DNA from: Pseudoalteromonas viridis
GTDB lineage: Bacteria; Pseudomonadota; Gammaproteobacteria; Enterobacterales; Alteromonadaceae
Length of the DNA: 64,000 nucleotides
Reading direction: 5' to 3'
Assembly (NCBI RefSeq): GCF_017742995.1
Contig: NZ_CP072425.1
Coordinates: forward strand, 248,001 to 312,000
Part shown: positions 40,270-57,051 of the stretch, piece after piece
Layout: each line of letters starts with the position of its first letter
Numbering within the stretch: position 1 is the stretch's first letter
The notes under the pieces: model-generated
Databases searched by the model: none
What the model was told of the DNA's origin: nothing
What the model saw: the letters and a program-made list of their open reading frames with translations, nothing else
Made by a program: the position numbers and the translations under genes

Positions 40270-40274
40270 GGGCC

Positions 40275-41207
40275 TTACCGAATAAGCCCAAACGACACTC
40301 TGGACAAGGTGCTGCGGCATACGCTCAGCATCATATAGGCACTCCAGTGCAATGGCTTGGCACGCGCCACCGGGTTGGCCAGCAGTCGCAACGCCTGGCC
40401 ATATAAGCGATGCTTAATGTTGCGCTTGGCCAGGTCGCAGATGTGGGTCGCGACATATTTATAAGCCATCGCAGTTTGCGCCACCTCGCCGTTTTTAATG
40501 GCACTGAGCAGGCGTTCGGCAAACGGACAGAGCTGGGTGGGTGGTGTCTTATCGCAGGCACTGCCCGGCGCGCCCAGAAAATAAAAGCTCTCAATGGCCG
40601 GAGAGTATGCGATGCGTGACTTCAGGGCTGCCTGCACATAAAAACTCTGATCTTCGCCCATCCATTCACCGACGGGAAAACCGCCTAACTGGTTGAACGC
40701 GGTTTTGTCGACCACCAAACTCGACATGGTAAAGGGTAAATCACCATTCGCCGCGACCTCAAAGTAGTTGTCCATTTCATACCCTTCGGGTGCCCAGTTG
40801 GTCAGTGCGATTTTGGCGTCGATATATTCGCCATTATCCAGTACCTTTTGATAGCGCGAGGCAAACAGGCCCGCCTGCGGAAACCGCTGGATCAGCTCAG
40901 CCATACGTGTCAAAAAGAACGGGCTCCAGGTGTCATCGGCATCCAAAAATGCCACGAAGTCACTGCTTGCCGCTTTCACGCCCTTATTGCGCGCAGCAGA
41001 GACCCCCTGATTGGTCTGGCGTACCAGACGTAAATTGGGCAAGCCCAGATCAATCACTTTTTGCGGGCTATCGTCGGTCGAGCCATCATCGACTACGATG
41101 ATTTCAGCGGCCTGATGGTGCTGTGCATGAACACTTTGCAGTGCCCGGACAATGCACTCGCTTTTATTATACAGCGGAATAACGACTGTGAATTGGATGG
41201 TGTTCAT
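40275..41207 (-). CDS. Glycosyltransferase family 2 (exopolysaccharide)
   Basis: A 310-residue GT-A glycosyltransferase: FTVVIPLYNKSECIVRALQSV, EIIVVDDGSTDDSP, GVSAARNKGVKAASSDFVAFLDADDTW (the DxD-type metal site) and GGFPVGEWMGEDQSF. The C-terminal 90 residues are basic and helical, fitting membrane association. It adds one sugar to the lipid-linked repeat unit. Its start overlaps the end of the pyruvyltransferase gene by 41 nt, so the two are translationally coupled and share the sigma-54-type promoter at 42338-42354. The sugar cannot be inferred. Confidence 0.93.
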   Translation of the reverse strand: MNTIQFTVVIPLYNKSECIVRALQSVHAQHHQAAEIIVVDDGSTDDSPQKVIDLGLPNLRLVRQTNQGVSAARNKGVKAASSDFVAFLDADDTWSPFFLTRMAELIQRFPQAGLFASRYQKVLDNGEYIDAKIALTNWAPEGYEMDNYFEVAANGDLPFTMSSLVVDKTAFNQLGGFPVGEWMGEDQSFYVQAALKSRIAYSPAIESFYFLGAPGSACDKTPPTQLCPFAERLLSAIKNGEVAQTAMAYKYVATHICDLAKRNIKHRLYGQALRLLANPVARAKPLHWSAYMMLSVCRSTLSRVSFGLIR

Positions 41208-42303
41208 AGTGTTCGCTCCAGTTAGAAAGGGATAAAGTAGTGGCTTGAGCTATGGCCAGGCGCGGTGCGTCAAAGCCACGATCCAGACCTCGATAGATCA
41301 CCCGAAACAGGGTATCCGGGTTAAACTCATTGGCATCAAACGCGTACTGCTCGGGCAGACCAATTTGCTCACACCATTGCGTGCATTTGGCGTGATATTG
41401 CAGGCTGATAAAGGGCGTTTGCGTCATATAGGCATAAATTTGTGCATGTAATCGCATGCCAACGACCACCCTGAACATCGCCATACACTGCAAAATACTG
41501 GCTGGGTTCGGTACATAGCGGATCCGTTTAACCGTCACATAATCGGGCAGGCGCGCCTCGATTTCGTCGTGAATGGCCCGGTCGCTGCCCTGTGCCTGAT
41601 CGTTCAGGTCAATCAGATAGATGTCTTCGTTGGTAAAGCTCCACACCGTGGTGATCAGGTCCACCGCTTTGGCAATCCGGCGCAGCTCGTTGTGCTCATT
41701 GACCGCGCCAAATGCATCGATAGATTGCGGGCAAAAGTTAAAGGCAATGCCCTGACGCGCCACCGGATTCAGTCTCCCTTTAAGGTGATGCAACAAAGAA
41801 GGTGCAAGGTCAAAGGTGTGCTTCAGGTTGGCATGCGGGGCCAGCGCCTCTGCAATGTCGTAGCTTTGCTTATCACGCAGTGTGACCAGACCACATTCGT
41901 AAAGAAACTTTTTGCATTGCAGTTCGTCATCCAGGGTTTTGAACGGCTCAATGCCCACGCCCAGCGCCATCGCCTGGTTACGACCACTCAGTGCCATCAT
42001 GTGACGCTTTAGCGCGATATCGCGGCTACTGTGTAGCACAGAGCCACCACCAAAAATCACATGCTGTGCGCCATAGGCATGGCGATAGTGCCACAGTCGT
42101 TGATGACCCCGAAACAACAGGGGTTGTTGCCCACTGCAATTTAACTGGTTCACCAGAGGGTCCCCTGCTGGGGCACTGACTGTCACCTGCTCGCTGTTCA
42201 GAAAATGCCGGGCACCCATCACCGATGCCAGCATAAGCGCATCATCACCGCTGTTACGCATGCCGTAGTAGCCAACAATATAAGCTTTGTTTTTTGCTGC
42301 CAT
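41167..42303 (-). CDS. Polysaccharide pyruvyl transferase family protein
   Basis: A 378-residue enzyme of the CsaB/WcaK type, which puts pyruvate ketals on sugars of extracellular polysaccharides and so makes them acidic. Family marks: IVGYYGMRNSGDDALMLASVM at the start, HVIFGGGSVLHSS, and VVGMRLHAQIYAYMTQTPFISLQYHAK near the C-terminus. GAGG lies 7 nt before the ATG. It is the first gene of a two-gene unit with the GT2 at 40275. A strong sigma-54-type promoter lies about 35 nt upstream. Confidence 0.92.
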   Translation of the reverse strand: MAAKNKAYIVGYYGMRNSGDDALMLASVMGARHFLNSEQVTVSAPAGDPLVNQLNCSGQQPLLFRGHQRLWHYRHAYGAQHVIFGGGSVLHSSRDIALKRHMMALSGRNQAMALGVGIEPFKTLDDELQCKKFLYECGLVTLRDKQSYDIAEALAPHANLKHTFDLAPSLLHHLKGRLNPVARQGIAFNFCPQSIDAFGAVNEHNELRRIAKAVDLITTVWSFTNEDIYLIDLNDQAQGSDRAIHDEIEARLPDYVTVKRIRYVPNPASILQCMAMFRVVVGMRLHAQIYAYMTQTPFISLQYHAKCTQWCEQIGLPEQYAFDANEFNPDTLFRVIYRGLDRGFDAPRLAIAQATTLSLSNWSEHYEHHPIHSRYSAV

Positions 42304-42337
42304 TGTGCTGCCTCGTTAAGTTAAGATACTGAGTTAT

Positions 42338-42354
42338 TGCAGCACTCATGCCAA
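42338..42354 (-). promoter_or_regulatory. Sigma-54-type promoter of the pyruvyltransferase-GT2 unit
   Basis: On the minus strand TTGGCATG-AGTG-CTGCA matches the consensus TTGGCACG-N4-TTGCW at all but two defined positions, with GG and GC exactly 10 nt apart. Transcription would start about 25 nt before the pyruvyltransferase ATG. Confidence 0.72.
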
Positions 42355-42412
42355 AATTTACACCGCTGTTTTTATTGAACTTTTTATGTTTTTCTCGTTT
42401 TTTGTCTGGACT

Positions 42413-42424
42413 AATTTGCAAAAG
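42413..42424. promoter_or_regulatory. GCAAATT-type motif upstream of the pyruvyltransferase promoter
   Basis: The minus strand reads CTTTTGCAAATT, 60 nt upstream of the -24 element; a related copy (TTTTGCTAATTG) is at 42445-42456. It resembles motifs before the other sigma-54-type promoters of this locus and may be an activator site. Confidence 0.4.
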
Positions 42425-42474
42425 GCAACGCGTTATTTTTTCACAATTAGCAAAATAGAAATGACCCTGTTCAA

Positions 42475-42505
42475 AATAAAAAACCACCGGCTGAGCGGTG
42501 GCTTT
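42475..42505 (-). terminator. Terminator of the WecG-sugar transferase unit
   Basis: On the minus strand the stem CCACCG / CGGTGG (extended by AAAG and TTTT pairs) is followed by TTTTTTATTTTG. It lies about 46 nt after the sugar transferase stop and separates that unit from the pyruvyltransferase unit. Confidence 0.85.
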
Positions 42506-42550
42506 ATGACAAAACACAAGTTAAGTGCAACATTATCACTCCCGTTGGGG

Positions 42551-43234
42551 TTAGTAGGCTCCTTTGGCGCCCAGGACACAAGGAATGGTTTTGAGTAAAA
42601 TCGATACATCGTTCAGCGCACTTTGCTCTACGATGTACTGTTTATCCAGCTGAACCTGCTGCGCAAACGTGGTATCAGCGCGACCTGTTACCTGCCACAG
42701 ACCTGTCAGACCCTGCTCGCTGTTCAGACGTCCCAGCTCGTGTGGTTGATACGCATTGACTTCATTTTCCAGCGCCGGGCGCGGACCGATTAACAGCATG
42801 TCGCCACGTGCCACATTCATTAACTGGGGCAACTCATCAATGGAATATTTACGAATAAATGCGCCAATGCGGGTAATACGCGGGTCGTTACGATACTTTG
42901 CACAGACCCCTTCGCGGTCGCTTTGTGCCGGATCCGGATTGCGAAAGCGCGGATCGCTTGGTAGATACATAGAGCGGAACTTATACATAGTAAAGCGACG
43001 TCCCAATTTACCTACCCGAACCTGCTTGTACACACACGGGCCCTGGCTCTCCAGCTTGATCAGCACTATCACAAGCAATAAAAACGGGCTGAGCAGTAAT
43101 AATCCGCTGATCGCAGCCAGGCGTTGTAGGCAGGCCGGGATACCATGGTGACGACCGTCCAGTTTTGTCTGTTCAGAAACAGATGATGACACCGGGGTGA
43201 ACTGAGTTGCTGTGGTTTTTTTGATGCTATACAT
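42551..43234 (-). CDS. Priming sugar transferase (undecaprenyl-phosphate hexose-1-P transferase)
   Basis: A 227-residue bacterial sugar transferase of the short WcaJ/WbaP catalytic type. One N-terminal membrane hairpin (LAAISGLLLLSPFLLLVIVLIKL), then YKQVRVGKLGRRFTMYKFRSM, the catalytic Asp-Glu motif in RKYSIDELPQLMNVARGDMLLIGPRP, and GLTGLWQVTGRAD. It starts repeat-unit synthesis by moving a sugar phosphate to undecaprenyl phosphate. Its gene begins 2 nt after the WecG-type fusion gene, with which it shares a sigma-54-type promoter. Confidence 0.95.
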   Translation of the reverse strand: MYSIKKTTATQFTPVSSSVSEQTKLDGRHHGIPACLQRLAAISGLLLLSPFLLLVIVLIKLESQGPCVYKQVRVGKLGRRFTMYKFRSMYLPSDPRFRNPDPAQSDREGVCAKYRNDPRITRIGAFIRKYSIDELPQLMNVARGDMLLIGPRPALENEVNAYQPHELGRLNSEQGLTGLWQVTGRADTTFAQQVQLDKQYIVEQSALNDVSILLKTIPCVLGAKGAY

Positions 43235-43236
43235 GA

Positions 43237-44484
43237 TTAAAGTCCTCGCAAAGCTTGTTGTAAAACGTAAACACGAAAGAGAAAAATGGGGTTGCCGAGC
43301 ACATAACGATGAAACTTGGCTTTAGGTTCCTGGATAAGACGCCACACCCATTCAAGGCCCAGCTCTCTCATCCACATTGGCGCACGCGCTATGTTGCCCG
43401 AGAAAAAATCGAACAAGCCGCCAACCGCCAATGCACACTGAGCGTGGAGCTTGTGTTTGTTGCTGTCTATCCAGATCTCCTGACGTGGCGAGCCAAGCGC
43501 GACCAGCACAATGTCGGCGCCACTTTGATTGATCTGGTCGACAACGGCCTGGTCATCATCAAAGTAGCCATGCTGCACGCCCGCAATACGCAGCCCCGGA
43601 TAGGCATGGCGCAGGTTATCAGCGGCCAGGCGTGCAACGCCCGGCTGAGCACCAAGCAGGAATAACGAACGCTTGTGTATTACGGCGGCGCGACACAATA
43701 CAGGCAGCATGTCGGTGCCATTGTTGTTATCAGCCAGACTCACCCCCGCCTGACGCGCCGCGATCCGCATGCCCGAGCCGTCGATAAAATTACGGTCACT
43801 GGATTGCAAAACCCGATACAACTGCGCGTTACCGGCAGACAGATTGACCGAGTTAACATTGATGTAATAGGCTGAGCGACATGCTTGCTGCTTGCTGCCC
43901 TGCACTACCCAGTCAACCGCGTTTTGCATCTGTGTGTTGCTAAAGGGAATGCCAAATAGGGTACTGTGCTGTGGCATGTTTGCAGACTTGCGATACAGGC
44001 ACAGACACAACAGGATTTTGCTGATCAGCAGCACATCGGCTGCTGTATCCTGGCGGCTTTGTTGCTGTAATAATGTCAGTGGTGTGTCGGTATTCAGCCC
44101 GGTCAGGCTGCGCAGCCACAAGCCATCAAATAGCCCGGGCATCTGACAAGGTGAGCGCAGCCGCGTTACTTTAGGAATACTGACTCCGGCGCGCACCAAA
44201 GGATTGCCAACAAAGTGAATGGATCCGCTCAAGACATTGAACAGCGCCGCACTGCGTTTACACATGCCGACCTGCCAGCTGAGCAGACGCACGGGTCGCG
44301 CACTGATATCAATCCAGGTTTGGCGACGCAGCGGTGCTTTAAAGCACAGCAGTGCCGCAGCCGTGTTGACGATAAACAGCGGCAACAGGGCGATGACCAG
44401 TAACAGGGCTGCGCTAACACGCAGTGCTGTATTGACGCTGGTATGGCCTGCCTGTGATGACTGAGTATTAAGATAGGGTGACAT
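43237..44484 (-). CDS. WecG/TagA/CpsF glycosyltransferase fused to a degenerate sugar-transferase domain
   Basis: A 415-residue protein in two parts. Residues 170-415 are a WecG/TagA family transferase: NTQMQNAVDWVV, YYINVNSVNLSAGN, FIDGSGMRIAARQAG, GTDMLPVLCRAA, LFLLGAQPGVAR, ADIVLVALGSPRQEIWI, GGLFDFFSG. This family adds the second sugar, often N-acetylmannosamine(uronate). Residues 20-150 look like a priming sugar transferase that has lost its catalytic parts: a membrane hairpin (SAALLLVIALLPLFIVNTAAALL), LFNVLSGSIHFVGNPLV in place of NVLRGDMSLVGPRP, and PGLFDGLWLRSLTG in place of PGITGLWQVSGR; the DELPQ dyad is absent. GGAGG is 5 nt before the ATG. An intact priming enzyme follows. Confidence 0.9.
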   Translation of the reverse strand: MSPYLNTQSSQAGHTSVNTALRVSAALLLVIALLPLFIVNTAAALLCFKAPLRRQTWIDISARPVRLLSWQVGMCKRSAALFNVLSGSIHFVGNPLVRAGVSIPKVTRLRSPCQMPGLFDGLWLRSLTGLNTDTPLTLLQQQSRQDTAADVLLISKILLCLCLYRKSANMPQHSTLFGIPFSNTQMQNAVDWVVQGSKQQACRSAYYINVNSVNLSAGNAQLYRVLQSSDRNFIDGSGMRIAARQAGVSLADNNNGTDMLPVLCRAAVIHKRSLFLLGAQPGVARLAADNLRHAYPGLRIAGVQHGYFDDDQAVVDQINQSGADIVLVALGSPRQEIWIDSNKHKLHAQCALAVGGLFDFFSGNIARAPMWMRELGLEWVWRLIQEPKAKFHRYVLGNPIFLFRVYVLQQALRGL

Positions 44485-44522
44485 CGCATCCTCCGCTGTT
44501 TAGTGAATTACACTAAGGAGAT

Positions 44523-44539
44523 AGCGAAGACCGTGCCAA
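44523..44539 (-). promoter_or_regulatory. Sigma-54-type promoter of the WecG-sugar transferase unit
   Basis: Minus strand TTGGCACG-GTCT-TCGCT has a perfect -24 box (TTGGCACG) and a -12 box with one mismatch; GG and GC are 10 nt apart. It lies 39 nt before the WecG start. Confidence 0.8.
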
Positions 44540-44600
44540 ACTTTAATTTATTGTTTTATAACAACTATTTTGAATTTACCGGGAATGTGAAGAGCGTAAA

Positions 44601-44617
44601 CTGCATTGCATTTTGAG
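44601..44617. promoter_or_regulatory. GCAAAAT-type motif upstream of the WecG promoter
   Basis: Minus strand CTCAAAATGCAATGCAG shares CAAAATGC with the site at 49685-49697 before the Wzx gene. It lies about 65 nt upstream of the -24 element, a typical activator distance. Confidence 0.4.
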
Positions 44618-44627
44618 AATTTTTTTA

Positions 44628-44709
44628 TTTTGAAAAACCCTCAGCTCTTTTTGAAAAACCTTCAGCACTTTTTAAAAAACCCTCAGCTCTTTTTAAAAAC
44701 CCTCAGCAT
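44628..44709. repeat. Four 20-21-bp tandem repeats at the 3' end of the glycosyltransferase gene
   Basis: Units start at 44628, 44648, 44669 and 44690 and read TTTTTGAAAAACCCTCAGCTC with small changes. The last unit contains the stop codon (TGA on the minus strand) and the final two codons of the glycosyltransferase gene. On the minus strand each unit gives CTGAGGGTTTTT, a GA-rich block with a T-run, so the array may also act in transcription termination. Confidence 0.8.
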
Positions 44710-45452
44710 TTCGCAAAGTAATGTGGATAAAGGGTTTGGATCTGTGCCAGGGCCCCAGGGACACGTGACTGGACCACGGCCAGTTTATCTGCCTGCTCTT
44801 CGGGCCGGGACAAGCTATAGCCCAGCAGCAGGCGCGAGCATTTGAAGATCACAGTATGAAAGCACTTATCCAGCAGCGAACACTTCAGGGGGCCATAGTT
44901 AAAGTGACGAATATAGTCATCCAGCTTTGCATCAAAGGTATTGTTCCAGTGCTTTTGCAGCTCGGCCACGCCTGCGCAGCCCGTGGCATAATGGATCACA
45001 TGTCCGTTTTCGCCCCAGCCAATCCCCTGTGACTCGGCCACGGGCTCTGTCATAGAGGTGATGAGGGTATCCAGCCAGGCAATCGCCTGCGGACAGTTGC
45101 GCATTAACATGACACCTGAGTTAAACGCCCCGCTATACCCTCTGGCAAGATACAAAAACTTGTCTGGCTGATAGAGGGTATCCAGCGCCGGGCAGGCTGG
45201 CTGAATACAGGCATCGGCATCCACAAACAACACCTGCCGGTAACCGGCCTGTAGCGCCGCTTTGAGCAAAAACAATTTAAGCCAGCAACACTCAGCGCCA
45301 AGCCGGTTCAGCCAGGGACGGGTCACCACCACATAATCGTACCCCATCCGCTTTGCGTACTCACGCTGGCTGTTCAGATAACGACGGTAGCGCCACTGAT
45401 AGCCATTCAGTGCCACGGAGAATATCAAAGTGTCTGATTGAGCAAAGTGCAT
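44703..45452 (-). CDS. Glycosyltransferase (galactosyltransferase/Mnn10-like, DxD type)
   Basis: A 249-residue GT-A enzyme: FSVALNGYQWRYRRYLNSQREYAKRMGYDYVVV at the start, KAALQAGYRQVLFVDADACIQP with the DxD metal site, then GAFNSGVMLMRNCPQAIAWLD. This order matches the GMA12/MNN10 galactosyl/mannosyltransferase group found in some bacterial capsule loci. It ends within a 21-bp tandem repeat array, which suggests the C-terminus was reshaped recently. AAAGGAGG is 5 nt before the ATG. It has its own sigma-54-type promoter, divergent from the LruC gene across 276 nt. Confidence 0.87.
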   Translation of the reverse strand: MHFAQSDTLIFSVALNGYQWRYRRYLNSQREYAKRMGYDYVVVTRPWLNRLGAECCWLKLFLLKAALQAGYRQVLFVDADACIQPACPALDTLYQPDKFLYLARGYSGAFNSGVMLMRNCPQAIAWLDTLITSMTEPVAESQGIGWGENGHVIHYATGCAGVAELQKHWNNTFDAKLDDYIRHFNYGPLKCSLLDKCFHTVIFKCSRLLLGYSLSRPEEQADKLAVVQSRVPGALAQIQTLYPHYFAKC

Positions 45453-45482
45453 ACTTACCTCCTTTGTGCCTTATCCCTGTTA

Positions 45483-45499
45483 AGCAAGTATTGCACCGA
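45483..45499 (-). promoter_or_regulatory. Sigma-54-type promoter of the DxD glycosyltransferase gene
   Basis: Minus strand TCGGTGCA-ATAC-TTGCT: the -12 box is perfect and GG/GC are 10 nt apart, but the -24 box is weak. Position is 31 nt before the start codon. Confidence 0.5.
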
Positions 45500-45576
45500 T
45501 CATTGAAAATATCCTGCGGCGCGCTACAGGCAGGCTGCTTTGGTTGTTTTACCGCCCTACCTGCGCGGTTTTTTTG

Positions 45577-45607
45577 TTTGCAAAGCGCAATGCAGTGCAA
45601 TTTGCGA
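45577..45607. promoter_or_regulatory. Shared GCAAATT-type motif between the glycosyltransferase and LruC promoters
   Basis: TGCAATTTGCGA at 45596-45607 is the exact reverse complement of TCGCAAATTGCA at 49664-49675. TTTGCAAA lies just upstream (45577-45584). The site is roughly midway between two divergent sigma-54-type promoters, so one bound activator could serve both. Confidence 0.5.
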
Positions 45608-45666
45608 AAAACCCGAGAACAACAAGGGTAAAAAACATAACCCACTGAAAATAAAAAGATTAAATT

Positions 45667-45683
45667 TTGGCACGCTTCATGAA
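45667..45683 (+). promoter_or_regulatory. Sigma-54-type promoter of the LruC-lipoprotein unit
   Basis: TTGGCACG-CTTC-ATGAA has a perfect -24 box. The -12 box is degenerate (TG kept, GA in place of GC). It lies 46 nt before the LruC start. Confidence 0.55.
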
Positions 45684-45728
45684 ATATCGAACTCAGATAG
45701 AAAAAACTGACTTTCAATCGGAGCGAAT

Positions 45729-47369
45729 ATGATGAAATTACCCAACACTCTTTATCCCTTAATGGCCACTGGATTAATTGCCTCAGGGCTATTATCGTTT
45801 GCAGCTGGCGCCGTAGAACAAATCGATGGTCAGTATGTCTGGCAATTCCAGTCTGGCCAGGCCTGGCCGTTTGGCTACAACCAGTCTACCGGCAAGCCTG
45901 ATTCTATGGTGTATGCACGTGAAGAATATAGCCGTGAATTTTTTCAGCGGATCCAAAACGCACTGCCCGAGGCTAAAATCAACGAGGCATTTATCACCGG
46001 TGATGCCGGCTCTACCATCCACCTGAGCGAAGATGCCGAGGTCTTCATTACCTTTATTCACGAAGGCGCGGGCTATAAAAACTCGTTTGGTTATTTTACC
46101 TTTGATCCGCAAAACCCACCGCAAACCCCTGAAGACGTGCAGGAAACCATCGTTTTCCCTAACCTCAGTTACCCTCACCTGACCAACGGGCACCGTGTCA
46201 GCATAGGTGAATTTGGGGCAGGCACCAGTATTGGCTTTTTTATCGCTGCCAATGGTTTTTGGTATGACACCGGGGTTAAGCCATTTAAAACGCCCTACTA
46301 CTACTCGCTGTCGAACCTGAACCCTGAAAGCAACGAGACACTGCGTCAGCACTGTGTTTTGCTGCTCGATGAAGCCCAGCAGGAAGTGGTCATCGGCTTT
46401 GAAGACTTGCCACGCACCTGGGGCGACAACGATTTCAACGACGCCGTATTCAGCGTGAAAAGCTCACCGGCCTCTGCCATTTCTGCACTCAACCTGACCG
46501 TTATGCCCGAGCAAAACGACAGCGACGCCGATGGCATTGAAGACGAGCTGGATGAATTCCCCAACGACTTTAACCGCGCTTACAGCCAGTACTTCCCCAG
46601 CGCACAAGGGGTAACCACTTTGGCTTTTGAAGATAACTGGCCTGCGCGAGGCGACCATGACCTCAACGACTTAGTGGTGAAGCAGCGTATTCGCATGACC
46701 TACAACGCCGATAACCAGATCAGCGGGTTTATCATCAATGGCTGGATCACTGCACGCGGCGCCGCCTATCAAAATGGCTTTGGTCTGCGATTGATGAACA
46801 GTGAGCCCGGGCTCATCAAACAAGCCAGCCTGACCATCGACGGCCAAAGCTTCGACAAAACCGCTGAAAGCGGACAGAGCAACGCGGTTTTATCGCTGTG
46901 GAGTAACACCCATGTATTCACCACCACCGGGCAATCTGGCCAGTGTCAGCACTTTAATACGGTGATGACCTGTGATTACTTTGAGCCGGTGCCTTACACC
47001 TTTGATGTGAGTTTTGAACAAGGGCTGGATGCACTCAGTATCAGTGATTTTGATTTCTTCTTGTATCGTACCCAGGATCGCTCACTGGAGATCCACCTGG
47101 CTGACTACCCGCCAACAGACAAGTTTGATACCAGTCGCTTCGGCACTGCCGATGACACCTCAAATGCGCAATCCAACCGCTATTTCAGAACCGCCGAAAA
47201 CCTGCCATGGGCACTGATGATCAGTAACGACTGGCACTACCCCAGAGAATATCTTGATGTCATCTGGGCCTATCCTGCCTATGAAACTTGGGTAGAAAGC
47301 AACGGCGAACAGGCGCAGGACTGGTTTATGACCAACGAACGCACCACCCACACATTCAGCGCACACTAA
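45729..47369 (+). CDS. LruC domain-containing exported protein with DUF4114
   Basis: A 546-residue exported protein (signal peptide about residues 1-28, cleavage near AAGAV). Residues 95-245 are a DUF4114-type domain that ends in FEDLPRTWGDNDFNDAVF (225-241). A calcium-binding-like loop follows (DSDADGIEDELDEFPND, 264-280), then an LruC domain from about 295 to the end, opening with LAFEDNWPARGDHDLNDLV. Acidic GDxDxND motifs suggest calcium-dependent surface folding. Such proteins are known from Leptospira and Vibrio outer surfaces. Placed among exopolysaccharide genes with a sigma-54-type promoter, it is a candidate matrix protein. CGGAG precedes the ATG. Confidence 0.88.
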   Translation: MMKLPNTLYPLMATGLIASGLLSFAAGAVEQIDGQYVWQFQSGQAWPFGYNQSTGKPDSMVYAREEYSREFFQRIQNALPEAKINEAFITGDAGSTIHLSEDAEVFITFIHEGAGYKNSFGYFTFDPQNPPQTPEDVQETIVFPNLSYPHLTNGHRVSIGEFGAGTSIGFFIAANGFWYDTGVKPFKTPYYYSLSNLNPESNETLRQHCVLLLDEAQQEVVIGFEDLPRTWGDNDFNDAVFSVKSSPASAISALNLTVMPEQNDSDADGIEDELDEFPNDFNRAYSQYFPSAQGVTTLAFEDNWPARGDHDLNDLVVKQRIRMTYNADNQISGFIINGWITARGAAYQNGFGLRLMNSEPGLIKQASLTIDGQSFDKTAESGQSNAVLSLWSNTHVFTTTGQSGQCQHFNTVMTCDYFEPVPYTFDVSFEQGLDALSISDFDFFLYRTQDRSLEIHLADYPPTDKFDTSRFGTADDTSNAQSNRYFRTAENLPWALMISNDWHYPREYLDVIWAYPAYETWVESNGEQAQDWFMTNERTTHTFSAH

Positions 47370-47381
47370 GAGGACACGACC

Positions 47382-47993
47382 ATGACAACATTTAACCAAC
47401 TTTCGACCCTGACCCTACTGTGTTTAACCTTGTGCGCCTGCGGTGGCGGTGGTGGTGAAGGCAGCTCATCCGGGCCTGCCAGCACCAGTCCGGCAAGTTC
47501 ATCCAGTAGCACGGTTACGACACCGGCACCGACTGCGAACACGCAGCCACAGGCGCAAACAGATGACAGTGCCGCAACCCCGGCACAACCTGCCGAGCCT
47601 GCGCCAAATTACGACCCGGATCCAGCACGGCTGGACAGTGCAGCCGAAACGTCCAACGACTTGCACGTCAAAGCCGATTTTAACTTCAGCACCAGTAAAT
47701 CCGTGACTCTGGACCTGGGCGGAGAGGATGTTTTTGGCGACTCTCTGGCCAATAAAATGGTCAAAATCTACGCCCTGCATGAGGTGATTGAAAGCTATGA
47801 AGATCAAGCGCTGGCCGATAAAGCGCTGCTGGCAACCACGCGCTTTAACAGTGCAGGCCAGCTCACGTTAACACTGGATGTGCCGGTCAATTACCAGACC
47901 CTGCTGATAAGCGTTGATGGCATGTTGCAAAGCAATCATTTGCTGAGCGAACTGACGATGCAGGCAACCACAGTAGCACACCAGTTTAACTGA
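47382..47993 (+). CDS. Lipoprotein of unknown function, partner of the LruC protein
   Basis: A 203-residue lipoprotein (lipobox LCLTLCACGGGGG). A Ser/Thr/Pro/Ala/Gln linker spans about residues 25-85; the C-terminal 110 residues form a beta-rich domain (LHVKADFNFSTSKSVTLDL, LTLTLDVPVNYQTLLISVDG). The gene starts 12 nt after the LruC gene and ends at a strong terminator, so the two are a dedicated operon. It may anchor the LruC protein or polysaccharide at the outer membrane. No family is recognised with certainty. Confidence 0.82.
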   Translation: MTTFNQLSTLTLLCLTLCACGGGGGEGSSSGPASTSPASSSSSTVTTPAPTANTQPQAQTDDSAATPAQPAEPAPNYDPDPARLDSAAETSNDLHVKADFNFSTSKSVTLDLGGEDVFGDSLANKMVKIYALHEVIESYEDQALADKALLATTRFNSAGQLTLTLDVPVNYQTLLISVDGMLQSNHLLSELTMQATTVAHQFN

Positions 47994-48015
47994 GCCGTTT
48001 AATCGCTTCCTCGCC

Positions 48016-48052
48016 AAACCGCTGCTCAGTGACTACTGAGCAGCGGTTTTCT
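48016..48052 (+). terminator. Terminator of the LruC-lipoprotein unit
   Basis: A perfect 15-bp stem AAACCGCTGCTCAGT / ACTGAGCAGCGGTTT with loop GACT and a T-rich tail, 22 nt after the stop codon. Confidence 0.92.
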
Positions 48053-48141
48053 CATTGTGCTGTTGCTTGTTTATTAATGCTTCAATTTGTCTAAGACTGT
48101 GTAATACTTCTATTAACACGCGTTAACTCAGGCAGGATTAC

Positions 48142-49635
48142 ATGGAACCGGTTACTAACATCACCTTGCTGTTCGTCGACGACGAGCCCCTTATTCTACG
48201 TTCACTTACGCGGGCGCTAAAACACGAGCCCTACACTGTGTATACCGCGCAAAGTGGCGAGGAAGGCCTGGCCTTGTTAGAACAACACCCCATCGATGTG
48301 GTGGTATCGGATAAAATGATGCCCAATATGTCGGGGATAGAATTTCTCGCTCAGGTTGCGGAGCGCTTTCCGGATACCATTCGCATGATGCTCACCGCCT
48401 TTACCGAGGTTGAAGACCTCATTGATGCCATTAACCAGGGCAAGGTCTGGGGCTATATGCAAAAGCCCTTCGAGATGAGCAATATCAAACTCACGCTTGA
48501 GCAGGCGGTGCAAACCAAAATGCTGGTAGCCGAACGCAACATGTTACGTGCCAGCCTGCAACGTTATCGCAGCTCGATCAAGTCGCAATTTTACCGCTTT
48601 GTGGGTGACTCCATCGCCATGCAAATGGTCTACAAGGCGATTGAAAAAGCCGGTCCCAGCCAGGCCAATGTGTTTATCACCGGGCCCAGTGGTACCGGTA
48701 AGGAATTGGCCGCCGACGCCATTCACCGCGCCAGCACCCGCAAAGATAAACCATTGGTGTGCATTAACTGCGCCGCCATCCCCAGCGAGCTGATGGAGTC
48801 TGAGATCTTCGGTCATATCAAGGGCGCCTTCTCGGGGGCGGTTACCAACCGCGATGGGGCTGCGACTCAGGCCGATGGCGGCACCCTGTTTCTCGATGAA
48901 ATTGGCGAAATGGATATGAACCTGCAAGCCAAGATCTTACGCTTTGTGCAGTCTGGCACCTTTCAGAAGGTGGGCAGCGGTAAAGAGGAAAAGGTCGATG
49001 TACGATTTATCTGTGCCACCAACCGCGAGCCGCATCAGGCGATTGCGGATCAGCGTTTGCGGGAAGACTTATTTTATCGCTTGAATGTGATTGCCATTGA
49101 TTTACCGGCGCTGCATGAGCGGGATCACGATGCGCTGCAAATTGCACAGCATTTTTTAAGTAAGTTCAGCGAAGTTGAAAACAAAGTGTTTGTGGGCTTC
49201 TCACCCGCCGCCGAGCAGCTGATCTTACGCTATGACTGGCCGGGCAACGTACGCCAGCTCGAAAACCTCATCCACAGCTGTGTGGTGATGTCCGACGGGC
49301 CGCTGATCACCGAAGACACGTTGCAAATGCAGCTTAAACTTAAACCCAGCGATGCCCAGGCACTGCTCAATGGTCAATCAGGCGCGATGCGCAGCAGCCC
49401 ACCGCAGCCATCACTGAGCGTGCAGCAAAGCGGTTATGCACCATCTCAACAGGCTGCCGAGATCCCATCTGAAAGTCAGATCTGCTCGCTGGCCGAAGTC
49501 GAACGTATCGCCATTGAAAAAGCCATTGCCGCATGCGACGACAACGTAGTAAAAGCCGCCAGCTTGTTGCAAGTCAGCCCCTCGACCCTATACCGCAAAA
49601 TGCAGCAATGGGGAGATAAAAATACCGGAGCCTGA
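48142..49635 (+). CDS. Sigma-54-dependent response regulator (REC-AAA+-Fis HTH)
   Basis: A 497-residue NtrC-type activator. REC domain at 1-125 with phosphoacceptor D57 (VVVSDKMMPNMSG) and acidic pair DDE at 13-15; AAA+ domain at about 152-385 with Walker A GPSGTGKE, the sigma-54 contact loop GAFSGA (consensus GAFTGA), Walker B GGTLFLDEIGEM and arginine finger region REDLFYRLNV; a Fis-type HTH at the C-terminus (DDNVVKAASLLQVSPSTLYRKM). No sensor kinase is adjacent. It sits in the middle of the exopolysaccharide locus, whose six units have sigma-54-like promoters, so it is the likely activator. The plan recalls SypG of Vibrio fischeri. Confidence 0.95.
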   Translation: MEPVTNITLLFVDDEPLILRSLTRALKHEPYTVYTAQSGEEGLALLEQHPIDVVVSDKMMPNMSGIEFLAQVAERFPDTIRMMLTAFTEVEDLIDAINQGKVWGYMQKPFEMSNIKLTLEQAVQTKMLVAERNMLRASLQRYRSSIKSQFYRFVGDSIAMQMVYKAIEKAGPSQANVFITGPSGTGKELAADAIHRASTRKDKPLVCINCAAIPSELMESEIFGHIKGAFSGAVTNRDGAATQADGGTLFLDEIGEMDMNLQAKILRFVQSGTFQKVGSGKEEKVDVRFICATNREPHQAIADQRLREDLFYRLNVIAIDLPALHERDHDALQIAQHFLSKFSEVENKVFVGFSPAAEQLILRYDWPGNVRQLENLIHSCVVMSDGPLITEDTLQMQLKLKPSDAQALLNGQSGAMRSSPPQPSLSVQQSGYAPSQQAAEIPSESQICSLAEVERIAIEKAIAACDDNVVKAASLLQVSPSTLYRKMQQWGDKNTGA

Positions 49636-49658
49636 TTTTATCGGGCGCTTACCTATTC

Positions 49659-49702
49659 GCAGATCGCAAATTGCAAAACCCCAGTCGCAAAATGCGATCT
49701 GC
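49659..49702. promoter_or_regulatory. Paired palindromic sites upstream of the Wzx promoter
   Basis: TCGCAAATTGCA (49664-49675) and TCGCAAAATGCGA (49685-49697) lie within a larger inverted repeat GCAGATCGCA / TGCGATCTGC (49659-49668 and 49693-49702). The first also occurs, inverted, at 45596-45607. Suggested role: binding sites of the sigma-54 activator; alternatively a terminator hairpin for the regulator gene just upstream. Confidence 0.5.
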
Positions 49703-49838
49703 ATACCTTAAGTTCTATCAAAACACCTTCTACATACACCCCTCGCGATCAAATCAGGCAATCTAAATTACAAATAAAGTATTTAAAAAACAGATAGCTA
49801 ATAGGCTTTCTTGAATTCTTTTACAGCCTCAGCTCGCC

Positions 49839-49855
49839 TTGGTACGGATTTTGGT
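49839..49855 (+). promoter_or_regulatory. Sigma-54-type promoter of the Wzx-GT2 unit
   Basis: TTGGTACG-GATT-TTGGT has one mismatch in the -24 box and one in the -12 box (GG instead of GC). It lies 35 nt before the Wzx start. Confidence 0.5.
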
Positions 49856-49889
49856 TAGTAAAAGTATCTGATAACAAGAGAGCAATGCC

Positions 49890-51143
49890 ATGACACACCC
49901 AACCAGCACCATGCGGACCCTGCTCAGCAATACCTCTTACCTGGTTGGTGCCGAGGTGGTTGCTAAGGCCTCGCGGCTGATCAGCATCATGGCGATGGCG
50001 GCCTGTTTGTCTGCCACTGAGTATGGCACGGCCATGCTGGCGCTGACCGTGCACGAAGTGCTGAGGCTGCTACTGCGCTCTGGTGCTGGCGCACAGGTGA
50101 TCCGGGCCAGCGATGACGAATTACCCGCTTTTTTGAAAAACGGTCGGTTATTACAGTGGCTGCTGTGTGTTGCCTTATGTCTGGTGCAAATTCTGGTGGC
50201 ACTGGCCAGCAGCTGGCTTTTTCCAGGTCAGGACATGACTGTGCTGATTGCCTTGATGGCGCTGACCTATCTGGTCTTTCCGCTGGTCTGTAACCAGGTT
50301 TTCCTGATGCAACGGCGCAACCAAATGGGCCTGTTCGGTCTGATCAGCAGCGTCTGTATTATCACCGAAAACTTAGCCCTGGCTGTTGCGCTGTATCTCG
50401 ACGCCGGATTACTGGCCGTGGTGATTGGCAAATGGGCCTTCACCTTACTGTGGCTTGGCTGCTTTGCCTTTGTCCCCACTTCGGCCATGACGGGCCAGTT
50501 CAGCAAAGCCGTATTTACCCGGTTGCTTAAAGCATCGACCCAACTCGCTGGCAGCGAAATCCTGCGCTCGCTGCGTGTCAATATGGACATGTTTGTCGCC
50601 GCACGTTTGCTAAGCCCGGAACTGTTCGGCCTGTACAGCTTTGCCAAAAGTGTGGGCGTTGGGCTGGCGATATCGGTTGCTCAGGCTTACACCACTGCCC
50701 TCTACCCCTTTGTTTGCAAACTGAAAAACGCAGGCAATTTTGGTAGCAGACACAGCCAGCTGCTGATCGCCATTACGACGGCTGTGTCTGCCATTTTTAT
50801 TGTTCAGGCGATGCTCGTGCCCTGGTACGTGCCAGTGCTATTCAGTGAACACTGGCAGGGCAGCTTTACCACCAGCGCGCTGCTGTGCCTGATAGCCACC
50901 AGCACAGTGTGGACCGACAGCTACGCCGTAATGCAACGTGCCAATGGCCGTTTTGCCCGAGAGTGCCAACTGAATGCTTATTGCTTACTGATTTCACTGG
51001 CCGGGCTGTTAATGCTACAGCCTGACCAACCCGTTTTACTTGCCGCCGTATTGGTGAGTTGCAGCGCACTGTGGCTGCTCTTCCCTTTGGCAGACTTTGC
51101 GCTGAGACGCTGTGATGTCGGCGCAGCAAAATCTTCCTCATGA
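49890..51143 (+). CDS. Polysaccharide flippase, Wzx/MATE-like (MOP superfamily)
   Basis: A 417-residue membrane protein with about 12 helices and the lipopolysaccharide-exporter layout: TLLSNTSYLVGAEVVAKASRLISIMAMA at the N-terminus, a charged loop with MQRRNQMG, and LAGSEILRSLRVNMDMFVAARLLSPELFGLYSFAKSVG in the middle. It moves lipid-linked repeat units across the inner membrane. The following GT2 gene starts 13 nt after its stop. It is the first gene of a unit behind a sigma-54-like promoter. Confidence 0.9.
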   Translation: MTHPTSTMRTLLSNTSYLVGAEVVAKASRLISIMAMAACLSATEYGTAMLALTVHEVLRLLLRSGAGAQVIRASDDELPAFLKNGRLLQWLLCVALCLVQILVALASSWLFPGQDMTVLIALMALTYLVFPLVCNQVFLMQRRNQMGLFGLISSVCIITENLALAVALYLDAGLLAVVIGKWAFTLLWLGCFAFVPTSAMTGQFSKAVFTRLLKASTQLAGSEILRSLRVNMDMFVAARLLSPELFGLYSFAKSVGVGLAISVAQAYTTALYPFVCKLKNAGNFGSRHSQLLIAITTAVSAIFIVQAMLVPWYVPVLFSEHWQGSFTTSALLCLIATSTVWTDSYAVMQRANGRFARECQLNAYCLLISLAGLLMLQPDQPVLLAAVLVSCSALWLLFPLADFALRRCDVGAAKSSS

Positions 51144-51156
51144 TCCGGAGCCCATT

Positions 51157-52179
51157 ATGACTAACTATGTGATTAACTCGAAACCCGTTGTCAGTATCGT
51201 CATCCCTATGTACAACGTTGAAAAATATATTGATAAATGCATCTGCTCGGTGCTCAACCAGACCTATCACAACTTTGAAGTGATCTGCGTTGATGACGGC
51301 TGTAGCGATAACACACTCAACTACCTGAGAGACTATAAAGATCACCGGATCCATATTATTCGTCAGCAAAACCGCGGCCTGTCCGGAGCACGTAATACCG
51401 GGATCCGCAACGCCCGTGGCGTCTATATTGCTTTACTGGACGCCGACGACTACTGGGCGGTCGATAAACTCGAAAAACATATTGCCCATCTGAATCGCAA
51501 CCCTCATGTTGACGTCAGCTACTGTCCATCCTTGTTTGTTGACGATGACAATAAACAACTGGGGATTGGTCAGTTTCCAAAATTAGACAATATAGATGCC
51601 AAAACCATTTTTTGTCGCAACCCGGTGGGCAATGGCTCCGCACCGGTAATACGTGCAGCCGCGCTGGAAAAAGTCGCCTTTCACGACGAGACGCGCAGCT
51701 GGCGCCAGTATTTTGATGAAAACCTCAGACAGTCTGAAGACATTGAAATGTGGCTACGCCTGGCGCTGTACAGCGATGCCGTTTTTGCCGGGATCCCTGA
51801 GCCGCTGACCTTTTATCGCGTTAATGCCAGTGGCTTATCCGCCAATCTGCAAAAGCAATATCAGAGCTGGGAAAGCGCGGTTAACAAACATAGACGCAGC
51901 CATGCGCAGTTTTTTAAACAGTGCGGTTCGCTTGCACGTGCTTATCAGCTCAGATACCTGAGCCGCCGTGCCGTGCAATCGCGCAATACCGCAGCCGCAC
52001 TTAAGCTCATCCATAAAGCGCTGTTTACCGATATTCGGATTTTATTGGAAGAACCTGGCCGCACCGCATTGACCTGGTGCTGTGCCCTGACCAGTCTGCT
52101 GCCAAAATCTTTGTACGACCGTGCCGAGAAGCTGGCCATGCGTACTCTTGGTCAGGCGAACAAGCACCCAACCAGCTAA
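51157..52179 (+). CDS. Glycosyltransferase family 2 (exopolysaccharide)
   Basis: A 340-residue GT-A glycosyltransferase: VVSIVIPMYNVEKYIDKCICSVLNQTY, EVICVDDGCSDNTL, GLSGARNTGIRNARGVYIALLDADDYW (metal site) and RQSEDIEMWLRLALYSD. The C-terminal part is basic and helical. ATG 51157 was chosen because CGGAG is 6 nt upstream and the GT2 core starts right after; an earlier ATG would overlap the flippase gene. It is the second gene of the Wzx unit and ends at a strong terminator. Confidence 0.93.
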   Translation: MTNYVINSKPVVSIVIPMYNVEKYIDKCICSVLNQTYHNFEVICVDDGCSDNTLNYLRDYKDHRIHIIRQQNRGLSGARNTGIRNARGVYIALLDADDYWAVDKLEKHIAHLNRNPHVDVSYCPSLFVDDDNKQLGIGQFPKLDNIDAKTIFCRNPVGNGSAPVIRAAALEKVAFHDETRSWRQYFDENLRQSEDIEMWLRLALYSDAVFAGIPEPLTFYRVNASGLSANLQKQYQSWESAVNKHRRSHAQFFKQCGSLARAYQLRYLSRRAVQSRNTAAALKLIHKALFTDIRILLEEPGRTALTWCCALTSLLPKSLYDRAEKLAMRTLGQANKHPTS

Positions 52180-52202
52180 CCCTTCGCTCCCGGGCCTGCA
52201 CC

Positions 52203-52269
52203 GTTATCAGGCAACTGATAACGCACCTCGCATCAATGGCCCTTAAGCCAGCATTTGCTGGCTTTTTTT
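52203..52269 (+). terminator. Tandem hairpins and terminator of the Wzx-GT2 unit
   Basis: GTTATCAG/CTGATAAC (52203-52222) is followed by AAGCCAGC/GCTGGCTT (52245-52264) with a 7-base T-run, a canonical rho-independent terminator. Confidence 0.92.
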
Positions 52270-52283
52270 CATTTTGAAATTGC

Positions 52284-52293
52284 TTTGCAAAAT
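52284..52293. promoter_or_regulatory. GCAAAAT-type motif upstream of the Wza promoter
   Basis: TTTGCAAAAT lies 80 nt upstream of the -24 element of the Wza promoter and resembles motifs before the other units of the locus. Confidence 0.35.
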
Positions 52294-52306
52294 ACAAAAA
52301 AACACC

Positions 52307-52341
52307 GTTAAAAACGCAGTTAAAAACGCAGTTAAAAAACC
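52307..52341. repeat. 12-bp direct repeats upstream of the Wza promoter
   Basis: GTTAAAAACGCA occurs twice head to tail (52307-52318, 52319-52330) and partly a third time (GTTAAAAAACC). Spacing near one helical turn would put repeats on the same DNA face; a regulatory role is possible. Confidence 0.55.
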
Positions 52342-52372
52342 ATAGACATATGATTAATAAGGAATAATAAAG

Positions 52373-52389
52373 TTGGCTTAGATTATGCT
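52373..52389 (+). promoter_or_regulatory. Sigma-54-type promoter of the Wza-Wzz-Wzy unit
   Basis: TTGGCTTAGATTATGCT has GG and GC 10 nt apart, TTGGC of the -24 box and TGCT of the -12 box; the ACG of the -24 box is replaced by TTA. It lies 49 nt before the Wza start. Confidence 0.6.
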
Positions 52390-52437
52390 CCAGTCATGCT
52401 AACAACACTGAGTAAGACCACTGCCAAGGAGCAAACC

Positions 52438-53706
52438 ATGACACAAGCGACTTCAACAACTCCCCTGATGACCCGCATCTCTGCGCTTGTACTGTGTGTG
52501 CTTGGCACTGGCTGCACACTCAGCCCCGATTACGACGAGGACGATTTCTATGGCATGCCACATGCCACTGGCACTCAGTTCAACCAGTCACACTCGGTGT
52601 TTGCATCACGTTTAAGCTGCACCGATGCCGACAACTTTGCAGCGGCGGCGAACTTTCGGGTTGACCAGCCGATCCCACTAGCCGCGCCGGGCCTGAGCCC
52701 CAATGAATCAAGCTACCGAGGCGCATTCGGTGCAGCACCGTTAAGCCCGGGCGACCTTATTCAGGTCAGAATGGAGTACGGCGAAGGCTTTAACGGCGAC
52801 TATGTGCTGGACAGCTCGGGCGCACTGACATTGCCCGTGATTGAACCCATCTACGCCGCAGGTTTAACCACCAAGGCCCTGGCGCAAAAAGTGGAGCTGG
52901 CGCTTATTCGTGCCAAAATCTTCCGTGCTCAGACGCTGGATGTCACAGTCAAAGTGAAAACCTGGGCCGCCATTGAAGTGCCTGTCTCAGGCGCAGTCTT
53001 TTCGCCGGGCCGGGTCACCATCAATGCCAAGTTACCGGAACAGCTGCTAGATCAGCAGGTGGCGGCGTCGGGCGACCATTCAAAACAGCGCCTGCTGTCA
53101 GAGGCCATTCGGGCTGCGGCCGGTGTCCGCCCCGATGCCAAACTGGACCAGGTGATCCTGGTTCGTCAGGGCTGGCGCATCGAAGCGGATCTGACCGGTA
53201 TTATGACTGGCCAGCCGGTCAAAGATCATGTCCTCATTGCCGGCGATCAGGTGATAGTACCCAGCACTGGCTGTTTTCAGCCCAACCTGGTGAAGCCGTC
53301 ACAGATCACGCCAAAAGGTTTCCGGGTATTTATGTCTAACCTGATTGACTCGTCAATGAGTAATGCCAATGCCGCCATCGGCCGCTTCTCTAGCAACCTG
53401 CCTTACGGCACCCGGTTGTTGCAGGCCGCCATTTCTGCCAACTGTGTGGGCGGCAAAGAGTATACCAATGCACCGCGTCGCATTGTGTTGGTCAGCAACC
53501 ACCCGCTGACCGGCAAAACCCAGGTGATAGAGCGTTCGGTAGAAGAGCTGATGCGTAAGTCTTATCGTGACCACATTAACCCTTATGTTATGCCGAACGA
53601 TGCCATCGCCTGCTATGATTCAAATATCACCAATCTACGTGATATCGCCCGGACGCTGTTAGATATCGTTTCACCCTTCTCTTTGCTGAGTAAGGAGGAC
53701 TCATGA
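52438..53706 (+). CDS. Polysaccharide export lipoprotein, Wza-like outer-membrane exporter
   Basis: A 422-residue lipoprotein (lipobox CVLGTGCTLS, Cys near residue 24). A Poly_export domain follows (about 95-180): LSPGDLIQVRMEYGEGFNGDYVLDSSGALTLPVIEPI, then SLBB-like parts (AIEVPVSGAVFSPGRVTI, DKVILVRQG-like strands). It forms the outer-membrane channel for the exopolysaccharide. ATG 52438 has AAGGAG 6 nt upstream; an ATG 14 codons earlier gives a poorer signal peptide. Its stop overlaps the next start (ATGA), so the exporter and the co-polymerase are coupled. Confidence 0.92.
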   Translation: MTQATSTTPLMTRISALVLCVLGTGCTLSPDYDEDDFYGMPHATGTQFNQSHSVFASRLSCTDADNFAAAANFRVDQPIPLAAPGLSPNESSYRGAFGAAPLSPGDLIQVRMEYGEGFNGDYVLDSSGALTLPVIEPIYAAGLTTKALAQKVELALIRAKIFRAQTLDVTVKVKTWAAIEVPVSGAVFSPGRVTINAKLPEQLLDQQVAASGDHSKQRLLSEAIRAAAGVRPDAKLDQVILVRQGWRIEADLTGIMTGQPVKDHVLIAGDQVIVPSTGCFQPNLVKPSQITPKGFRVFMSNLIDSSMSNANAAIGRFSSNLPYGTRLLQAAISANCVGGKEYTNAPRRIVLVSNHPLTGKTQVIERSVEELMRKSYRDHINPYVMPNDAIACYDSNITNLRDIARTLLDIVSPFSLLSKEDS

Positions 53707-55094: not shown

Positions 55095-55105
55095 CGGAGG
55101 CCAGC

Positions 55106-56389: not shown

Positions 56390-56829
56390 CGGGTGGCCGC
56401 GCGCTTGAGCGAGTTGGCAGTCAGCTGGGGCACTCCGTACACCTCGACCTCACAGTTATGGCGGCTTTGAATACGCTCGGCCAGCAAGTCAAAGTCACCA
56501 TCCCCGGTCAGCAGCACCACCACATCGCAATGAGGTGCGCACTCCATGGCATCCAGGGTGATCCCCACATCCCAGTCACACTTGGCGGAGCCATCCGCTC
56601 TTTGAATATAGGGTTTTTGTTTGACCTCAAAGCCGATGGCTCTGAGAATATTCTGAAACTGTTGCTGCTTGGGCGCATTGGGCTCGCTGGAATACGCCAA
56701 AGCCCGGTATAAAGTACGGTCTTTAAGCACTTGCTGCCAAAAGCCGTTGTAATCAAAGCTTCTGCCATAGGCCTGGCGGGTGGTGTAGTAAATATTCTGG
56801 ACATCGACCAGAATAGCGATTTTTTTCAT
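56323..56829 (-). CDS. NYN domain protein (LabA/DUF88 family, PIN-like nuclease)
   Basis: A 168-residue protein with the NYN fold: KIAILVDVQNIYYTTRQ at the start (D8 and N11), KCDWDVGITLDAM (D residues) and VVVLLTGDGDFDLLAERIQ. These acidic residues fit a PIN-like metal-dependent RNase site. Bacterial LabA-type proteins are thought to process RNA, but few targets are known. Its last 22 codons overlap the 3' end of the polymerase gene in antiparallel orientation, so the two transcripts share a complementary stretch. Confidence 0.92.
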   Translation of the reverse strand: MKKIAILVDVQNIYYTTRQAYGRSFDYNGFWQQVLKDRTLYRALAYSSEPNAPKQQQFQNILRAIGFEVKQKPYIQRADGSAKCDWDVGITLDAMECAPHCDVVVLLTGDGDFDLLAERIQSRHNCEVEVYGVPQLTANSLKRAATRYMVIDERLLLNAKPNHNKAGQ

Positions 56830-57051
56830 GGTATTACGGACCTTTTAACTTGTTTGAGGAGAAGGCCGCGAACGATACAGAGTGTTAATGAACGCATGAA
56901 TGCCCTGGTGGTAAAAGTGGCTGTCACTATATCACAGAACCCAGACGATGCGGGTCATAAATAAGACGTTAAAAATTCACACCGTTTACACTTTTAATAC
57001 ATCTATTCCCCGGATAATCCCGCATTTCGTTCAAATACCAAGGAAACCAAC

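Follow-up and report, generated by a model that had tools for sequence, protein, structure and literature searches.

A candidate sigma-54 regulon under a LuxO/SypG-type response regulator in an exopolysaccharide locus of Pseudoalteromonas viridis

Are the six transcription units that flank a single NtrC-type response regulator in an exopolysaccharide locus of Pseudoalteromonas viridis controlled separately, or do they form one regulon? The locus lies in a 64 kb stretch of the genome (C1:248001-312000, here called the window; the genome comprises 5.55 Mb in two contigs), where Wzx/Wzy-type exopolysaccharide genes and an LruC-domain gene, assigned with Pfam and NCBIfam, surround the regulator at 48142-49635. 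NtrC-type activators of this kind need sigma-54, and the genome contains one match to rpoN. An original prediction held that a -24/-12 element precedes each unit and that polysaccharide synthesis, export and the LruC-domain protein are switched on together. As far as sequence reaches, joint control is supported by site scores, by the recurrence of the sites in relatives, by a shared activator site and by a LuxO-type recognition helix in the regulator. We put the probability that the locus is one sigma-54 regulon under a LuxO/SypG-type response regulator at roughly 0.87.

Such a regulon would give the exopolysaccharide locus of Pseudoalteromonas and its relatives a complete and testable wiring, from activator through enhancer sites and promoters to targets. 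A non-exhaustive search of open-access papers found no literature on the locus or its control.

Six -24/-12 elements and their upstream palindromes

The six 17-mers proposed as promoters were all located where the original prediction had placed them, strand included:

42338-42354, minus strand: -24/-12 promoter of pyv-gt2a, TTGGCATG-AGTG-CTGCA
44523-44539, minus strand: -24/-12 promoter of wecG-wcaJ, TTGGCACG-GTCT-TCGCT
45483-45499, minus strand: weak -24/-12 promoter of gt34, TCGGTGCA-ATAC-TTGCT
45667-45683, plus strand: -24/-12 promoter of lruC and a lipoprotein gene, TTGGCACG-CTTC-ATGAA
49839-49855, plus strand: -24/-12 promoter of wzx-gt2b with a conserved non-GC -12 box, TTGGTACG-GATT-TTGGT
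52373-52389, plus strand: -24/-12 promoter of wza-orf463-wzy, TTGGCTTA-GATT-ATGCT

As had been described, the GG-N10-GC spacing is exact in four sites (42338, 44523, 45483 and 52373), TTGG occurs in five of the six, and two -12 boxes are weak, reading GA at 45667 (lruC) and GG at 49839 (wzx). Each element stands shortly before its first gene, with 30-48 nt between the end of the -12 box and the start codon. For wza the start was taken as 52438 in place of the first ATG of the open reading frame at 52396, because the latter would precede the expected transcription start.

Scanned with an approximate sigma-54 matrix over 127,968 window positions (both strands, flat background), the sites rank 1 (wecG), 2 (pyv), 4 (lruC), 5 (wzx), 11 (wza) and 76 (gt34); under another background wza drops to rank 23. 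The genome background was a set of 520 upstream regions, drawn from 1.24 Mb of this genome and defined as non-coding stretches of 80 nt or more ahead of open reading frames of some 100 aa or longer. It is harsh because the regions were partly picked for other sigma-54 candidates. By the sigma-54 matrix alone the six sites rank 3, 4, 20, 24, 41 and 95 among these regions. The last of these ranks is that of gt34, which, with its rank of 76 in the window, makes this site unconvincing by itself. The regulator gene, already described as lacking such an element, ranks 334 of 520 by the sigma-54 matrix and 453 of 520 by the joint score given below. Sigma-70-like sites showed no enrichment in 40000-57200 (12 found, 13.9 expected from shuffles). 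Searched through the whole genome, a sigma-54 pattern matched 65 places on one strand and 70 on the other, its control 48 and 38, and was too noisy to define a regulon.

Is there also a common activator site? Dyads in the upstream regions led to the palindrome TTTGCA-N3-TGCAAA, in a model for whose training the rubra group was left out. An unconstrained motif fit had yielded only AT-rich sequence; the final fit used a Markov background and a capped number of sites. All six -24 boxes have the activator consensus, TTYGCA-N3-TGCRAA, at 66-176 bp on their upstream side, mostly in pairs:

42415-42482: pyv activator sites, 15-mers at 42415, 42447 and 42468, lying 68, 100 and 121 bp upstream of the -24 box
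44605-44636: wecG activator pair at 44605 and 44622, 73 and 90 bp upstream
45577-45608: activator pair at 45577 and 45594, common to the divergent gt34 and lruC promoters
49656-49698: wzx activator sites at 49656/49663 (overlapping) and 49684, 148-176 bp upstream
52266-52298: wza activator pair at 52266 and 52284, 82 and 100 bp upstream

Centres of paired palindromes are 17-21 bp apart in the window, and 22-25 bp apart at wzx in many relatives. Eight of the 12 best and 16 of the 30 best palindrome hits in the window, some of them overlapping, fall 30-260 bp upstream of a -24 box; no activator palindrome was found at the regulator gene. Another good match (50713-50727) is situated inside the wzx coding sequence, away from the six promoters.

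Motif training for a held-out test used other units only and 21 of the 27 loci from outside Pseudoalteromonas; each upstream region was then compared, by the sum of its two best sites, with composition-matched stretches of the genome. The observed sums were reached by fractions of 0.0009 (pyv), 0.0017 (gt34) and 0.0002 (lruC) of the null stretches, and by none of 1476 for wecG, none of 1476 for wzx and none of 3583 for wza. The gt34 and lruC results are not independent, because one region is common to both.

When sigma-54 and activator scores were joined, the six sites took ranks 1-6 among 110 window candidates, and none of 200 column-permuted matrices reached their rank sum of 21 (nearest 22, median 89.5). 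Their joint ranks among the 520 upstream regions are 1, 2, 3, 4, 5 and 10, gt34 being tenth. By the matrix scan that had been suggested as a check, very few other upstream regions outscore the sites, which for gt34 holds only with the activator sites included, and the observation is far from chance. The seventh joint score of the window belongs to a site at 2428-2444 on the minus strand with a good palindrome at 2584-2598, which was judged a chance match because its -24/-12-like part lies inside an open reading frame on the opposite strand. A purely compositional likeness, in which AT-rich intergenic stretches mimic palindromes and GG...GC arises by chance, is barely credible. The intergenic stretches are indeed 54-60% AT, and A/T predominates in some activator sites, but the null stretches matched this composition, no permuted matrix did as well, and the sites recur at similar places across genera, where internal and unrelated leading genes served as controls.

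Searched genome-wide with at most one mismatch, the palindrome pattern matched 70 places (reversed control 35), again too noisy to define a regulon. Several of these matches are one repeated sequence; TTTGCAAACTCCGAA occurs at about ten listed C1 places and is probably part of a repeated element.

The regulator and its predicted DNA recognition

Which protein would act at these palindromes? The gene between the units encodes a complete NtrC-type activator:

48142-49635, plus strand: activator of 497 aa with receiver, AAA+ domain (GAFSGA) and Fis-type helix-turn-helix (VSPSTLYRK), by Pfam

Its sigma-54 AAA+ domain (PF00158) scores 220 bits with the variant loop GAFSGA, and both the receiver (PF00072) and the helix-turn-helix (PF02954) are present. 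LuxO provides the best NCBIfam model (NF041946; 467.2 bits, under the cut-off of 800) and the closest PDB chain (5ep0). PrsR, the PEP-CTERM response regulator, is a sigma-54 activator beside exopolysaccharide genes, and its model (TIGR02915) gives 358.7 bits, below the cut-off of 502.6. By the models tested the regulator is an equivalog of neither LuxO nor PrsR. In a tree that omitted near-copies and short proteins and included four of the 16 other strong activators of this genome, its clade separates from LuxO-like proteins with support 100/99. The loop follows the same division: all 38 clade rows read, the window's included, carry GAFSGA bar one GSFSGA, whereas 29 of the 30 LuxO-like rows read have GAFTGA or GSFTGA and the other, L106, has GAFSGA. 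The regulator differs from LuxO also in its polysaccharide neighbours.

The recognition helix points back to LuxO. SPSTLYRKM in the regulator matches SxIYRKL in LuxO, with I/L and L/M differences, and SPSTLYRK fits the residues that the available part of PMC11407668 reports as critical in the helix of LuxO. The learned palindrome in turn matches the LuxO site UAS_LuxO, TTGCAWWWTGCAA, as given in an excerpt of PMC10162802. In LuxO-controlled promoters two such sites precede the sigma-54 site by about 100 bp, according to the same portion of PMC11407668. We predict that the regulator has LuxO-type DNA recognition. The genome holds 17 strong activator genes, this one included, with four weak matches outside the helix comparison, and the SPSTLYRK helix is absent from all 16 others. 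The shared activator site and the LuxO-type helix together tie the promoters to this one activator.

Might the six elements instead be sigma-54 promoters run by a different activator, the regulator having another job? Binding by the regulator is a prediction, and 17 strong activator genes leave room for such an arrangement, but we consider it improbable: none of the other 16 strong activators has the LuxO-type helix, the palindrome is that of LuxO as quoted in PMC10162802, the regulator adjoins wzx and gt2b in 22 of the 27 loci outside Pseudoalteromonas, and regulator and wzy co-occur in the same 24 of 108 genomes of the genus. Repression in place of activation is very improbable. The sign of control is unreadable from sequence, but the AAA+ domain is complete, GAFSGA is among the loop variants expected to keep activity (PMC4641369, in the section available), the paired sites sit at enhancer distances, and sigma-54 promoters need an activator.

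A single regulon under the 48142-49635 regulator would work as follows. The regulator, probably expressed from a promoter outside the regulon, would bind as dimers to the palindromes 66-176 bp upstream of the -24 boxes, and the divergent gt34 and lruC promoters would use one activator pair. RNA polymerase-sigma-54 would be poised at each of the six -24/-12 elements, and the regulator would open it with DNA looping and ATP hydrolysis. In this way the LruC-domain protein, a putative matrix component, would be turned on together with the Wzx/Wzy exopolysaccharide machinery.

The comparison with SypG of Vibrio fischeri made in the original prediction proves apt as a way of working. In the syp system, too, an NtrC-type response regulator acts at sigma-54 promoters within a polysaccharide locus, through LuxO-like activator sites (UAS_SypG, TTCTCANNNTGMDWN, in the portion of PMC10162802 available). 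The window's system differs in having an LruC-domain protein in the predicted regulon, full LuxO-like palindromes and a regulator of the GAFSGA clade. The logic resembles that of SypG and recurs here in a different lineage, with a polysaccharide cluster whose genes include one for an LruC-domain protein. VpsR of Vibrio cholerae is likewise an NtrC-like regulator of polysaccharide production, but part of its GAFTGA stretch is deleted and doubt has been cast on its dependence on sigma-54 (PMC3162934, from the text available), whereas the window's regulator retains the motif as GAFSGA.

The promoters in relatives

Do the sites persist where the genes do? Regulators that are 97-98% identical occur in Pseudoalteromonas rubra S2471 and Pseudoalteromonas sp. 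OOF1S-7. In the rubra group, in a group whose regulators are 72% identical and, gt34 excepted, in the luteoviolacea group, the same genes are preceded by sites at comparable distances (the comparison was made partly without 12 near-identical loci, and loci with a protein less than 36% identical were left out). The conservation on which the original prediction depended is therefore seen across Pseudoalteromonas and also in other genera. Gene order differs in the 27 loci outside Pseudoalteromonas. A sigma-54 score of at least 10 is seen there before 38 of 59 leading cluster genes; other leading genes have one in 11 of 112 cases, internal cluster genes in 5 of 72 and regulator genes in 3 of 25. 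Outside Pseudoalteromonas such promoters track operon starts. Three Colwellia loci (L059, L063 and L064) are an example: wzy leads a unit there and has a sigma-54 site scoring 12.5-15.6, while pyv, at 3.9-7.3, has none of note.

Several points weigh against a single regulon. The sigma-54 matrix is an approximation. The activator matrix used for window and joint scoring was partly trained on orthologous promoters of other Pseudoalteromonas, which the held-out test alone excludes, and the joint counts in loci outside the genus are partly in-sample. At pyv the activator sites are imperfect, the best of them reaching P 0.017 by itself in the held-out test, and one sigma-70-like match lies upstream of wecG (44591-44564, minus strand). 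Another protein could bind LuxO-type sites, and the possible kinase link discussed below is drawn from gene neighbourhood in other genera. Finally, gt34 scores poorly when the sigma-54 matrix is used by itself, and no such site was found in the luteoviolacea group.

The last point bears on a narrower version of the regulon, comprising only pyv, wecG, lruC, wzx and wza, with the gt34 site a chance match and gt34 read from elsewhere. This is unlikely, but it deserves serious consideration in view of the rank of 95 among 520 and of 12 of 18 loci in which masked scoring found no gt34 site. Against it, the rubra and 72%-identity groups and several other genera have a site at a similar position with a good TTGC -12 box, and in the window the gt34 promoter uses the lruC activator pair and is the sixth joint site. 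We therefore retain gt34 in the regulon of six units.

The weak -12 box of wzx can be judged by the same comparison. Here the last two -12 positions were masked during site choice, and 21 near-duplicate loci as well as loci with a protein less than 36% identical were left out. GC occurs at the wzx -12 box in none of 22 scored loci (TGA in 15, TGG in 6, TGT in 1; two more loci lack a site), while it is found in 18 of 18 loci for wza, 15 of 17 for wecG, 12 of 14 for pyv, 9 of 13 for lruC and 5 of 6 for gt34. These counts turn a box that had seemed doubtful into a conserved feature of one promoter. In seven further loci scored without masking (L067, L070, L072, L075, L076, L077 and L079), two wzx sites end in GC. 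To our knowledge, -12 boxes without the usual GC are rare elsewhere. The conserved weak box offers a natural case of promoter tuning under sigma-54 and, if the proposed control is true, the GAFSGA loop and the non-GC box would suit a study of co-adaptation between activator loop and -12 element.

Two joint sites in other genera (L055 14551, plus strand; L070 17950, minus strand) precede small-protein genes whose products have signal-like N-termini and, by eye, PEP-CTERM-looking C-termini. They suggest that in Paraglaciecola and Alteromonas the regulon is wider and takes in secreted proteins.

A possible nitric-oxide input and the gene content of the locus

What would the receiver domain respond to? 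The regulator had been called an orphan, which holds within the window, where a pattern scan found no kinase; in relatives the neighbouring genes suggest H-NOX and a kinase as partners. Of the 27 regulator loci outside Pseudoalteromonas, 15 contain kinases of one family and eight contain H-NOX genes, each beside such a kinase (six of these H-NOX assignments are Pfam-confirmed, two come from tblastn). In L078 the H-NOX, kinase and regulator genes are consecutive on one strand, and in L067 and L070 the first two are divergent from the regulator. A REC-HD protein (Pfam) stands between H-NOX/kinase and regulator in L060, and a receiver-like protein (by pattern) does so in L080. None of the 28 Pseudoalteromonas loci, some being the same genome twice, has H-NOX or kinase near the regulator. 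The best kinase match in the P. viridis genome (308 bits, next 170) belongs to an H-NOX module on the second contig:

L305 9606-12653 (C2 about 375.6-378.7 kb): H-NOX gene, histidine kinase gene and divergent REC-HD gene

This kinase is 36% identical to that of L060 and has a REC-HD neighbour of its own, so that it stays only a lead. No joint site of note was found at this locus. The module adjoins large, probably secreted proteins. H-NOX is present in all 24 genomes of the genus with the regulator and in 51 of the 84 without it, suggestive counts that are not independent of kinship.

The parallel with SypG may extend here. In V. fischeri, nitric oxide acts via HnoX-HahK on SypG-dependent biofilm, as described in the part of PMC12369376 available; in the window's lineage such an upstream branch is a lead. 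An H-NOX-associated-type kinase might phosphorylate the regulator, and polysaccharide production would then be tuned by nitric oxide. In H-NOX/HnoK circuits, as the available portions of their literature describe them, H-NOX genes similarly stand beside histidine kinases and receiver proteins, and H-NOX is tied to biofilm. The present case differs in that, in other genera, the neighbourhood includes a sigma-54 activator of a polysaccharide regulon, and in that the H-NOX module of P. viridis is on another contig than the regulator. Nitric oxide is thus pointed to as a possible input to the regulator in this organism, a tentative proposal that falls short of even odds. More doubtful still is the full scheme, a nitric-oxide-gated switch over the whole regulon in several marine gammaproteobacterial families, in which H-NOX and kinase would act through the GAFSGA relative of LuxO on all units, with wzx held weak and export tuned against synthesis.

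The six units comprise:

40275-42303, minus strand: unit 1 (pyv-gt2a), pyruvyl transferase at 41167-42303 and family 2 glycosyltransferase (GT2) at 40275-41207, by Pfam
42551-44484, minus strand: unit 2 (wecG-wcaJ), WecG/TagA at 43237-44484 and sugar transferase at 42551-43234, by Pfam
44703-45452, minus strand: unit 3 (gt34), glycosyltransferase with a weak GT34 match (Pfam, 23.6 bits, cut-off 23)
45729-47993, plus strand: unit 4, LruC-domain protein at 45729-47369 and small Gly-rich probable lipoprotein at 47382-47993
49890-52179, plus strand: unit 5, Wzx-type flippase at 49890-51143 and GT2 (gt2b) at 51112-52179, by Pfam
52438-56389, plus strand: unit 6, Wza-type exporter at 52438-53706, orf463 at 53703-55094 and Wzy-type polymerase at 55106-56389, by Pfam and NCBIfam
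42505-42480, minus strand: terminator-like hairpin after wcaJ (unit 2)
52245-52264, plus strand: terminator-like hairpin after gt2b (unit 5)
48016-48049: 15-bp inverted repeat between the unit 4 lipoprotein gene and the regulator, fold of -28.4 kcal/mol over 75 nt

The hairpins and the inverted repeat fit separate units, each with its own promoter. The product of orf463 is chain-length-like, by matches that are all below cut-off, and the lipoprotein was called by eye. The LruC-domain protein passes TIGR04456 (260.7 bits, cut-off 36), and the locus gives such proteins a setting outside Leptospira, the organism to which, by titles, the literature found under 'LruC domain' relates. A second LruC-domain gene (C1:2855483-2856238, in a larger open frame) has a palindrome-like site and no convincing sigma-54 site. 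Between the gt34 end and the wecG activator sites, an imperfect tandem repeat of AAAACCCTCAGCTCTTTTT-like units was seen by eye at 44630-44703.

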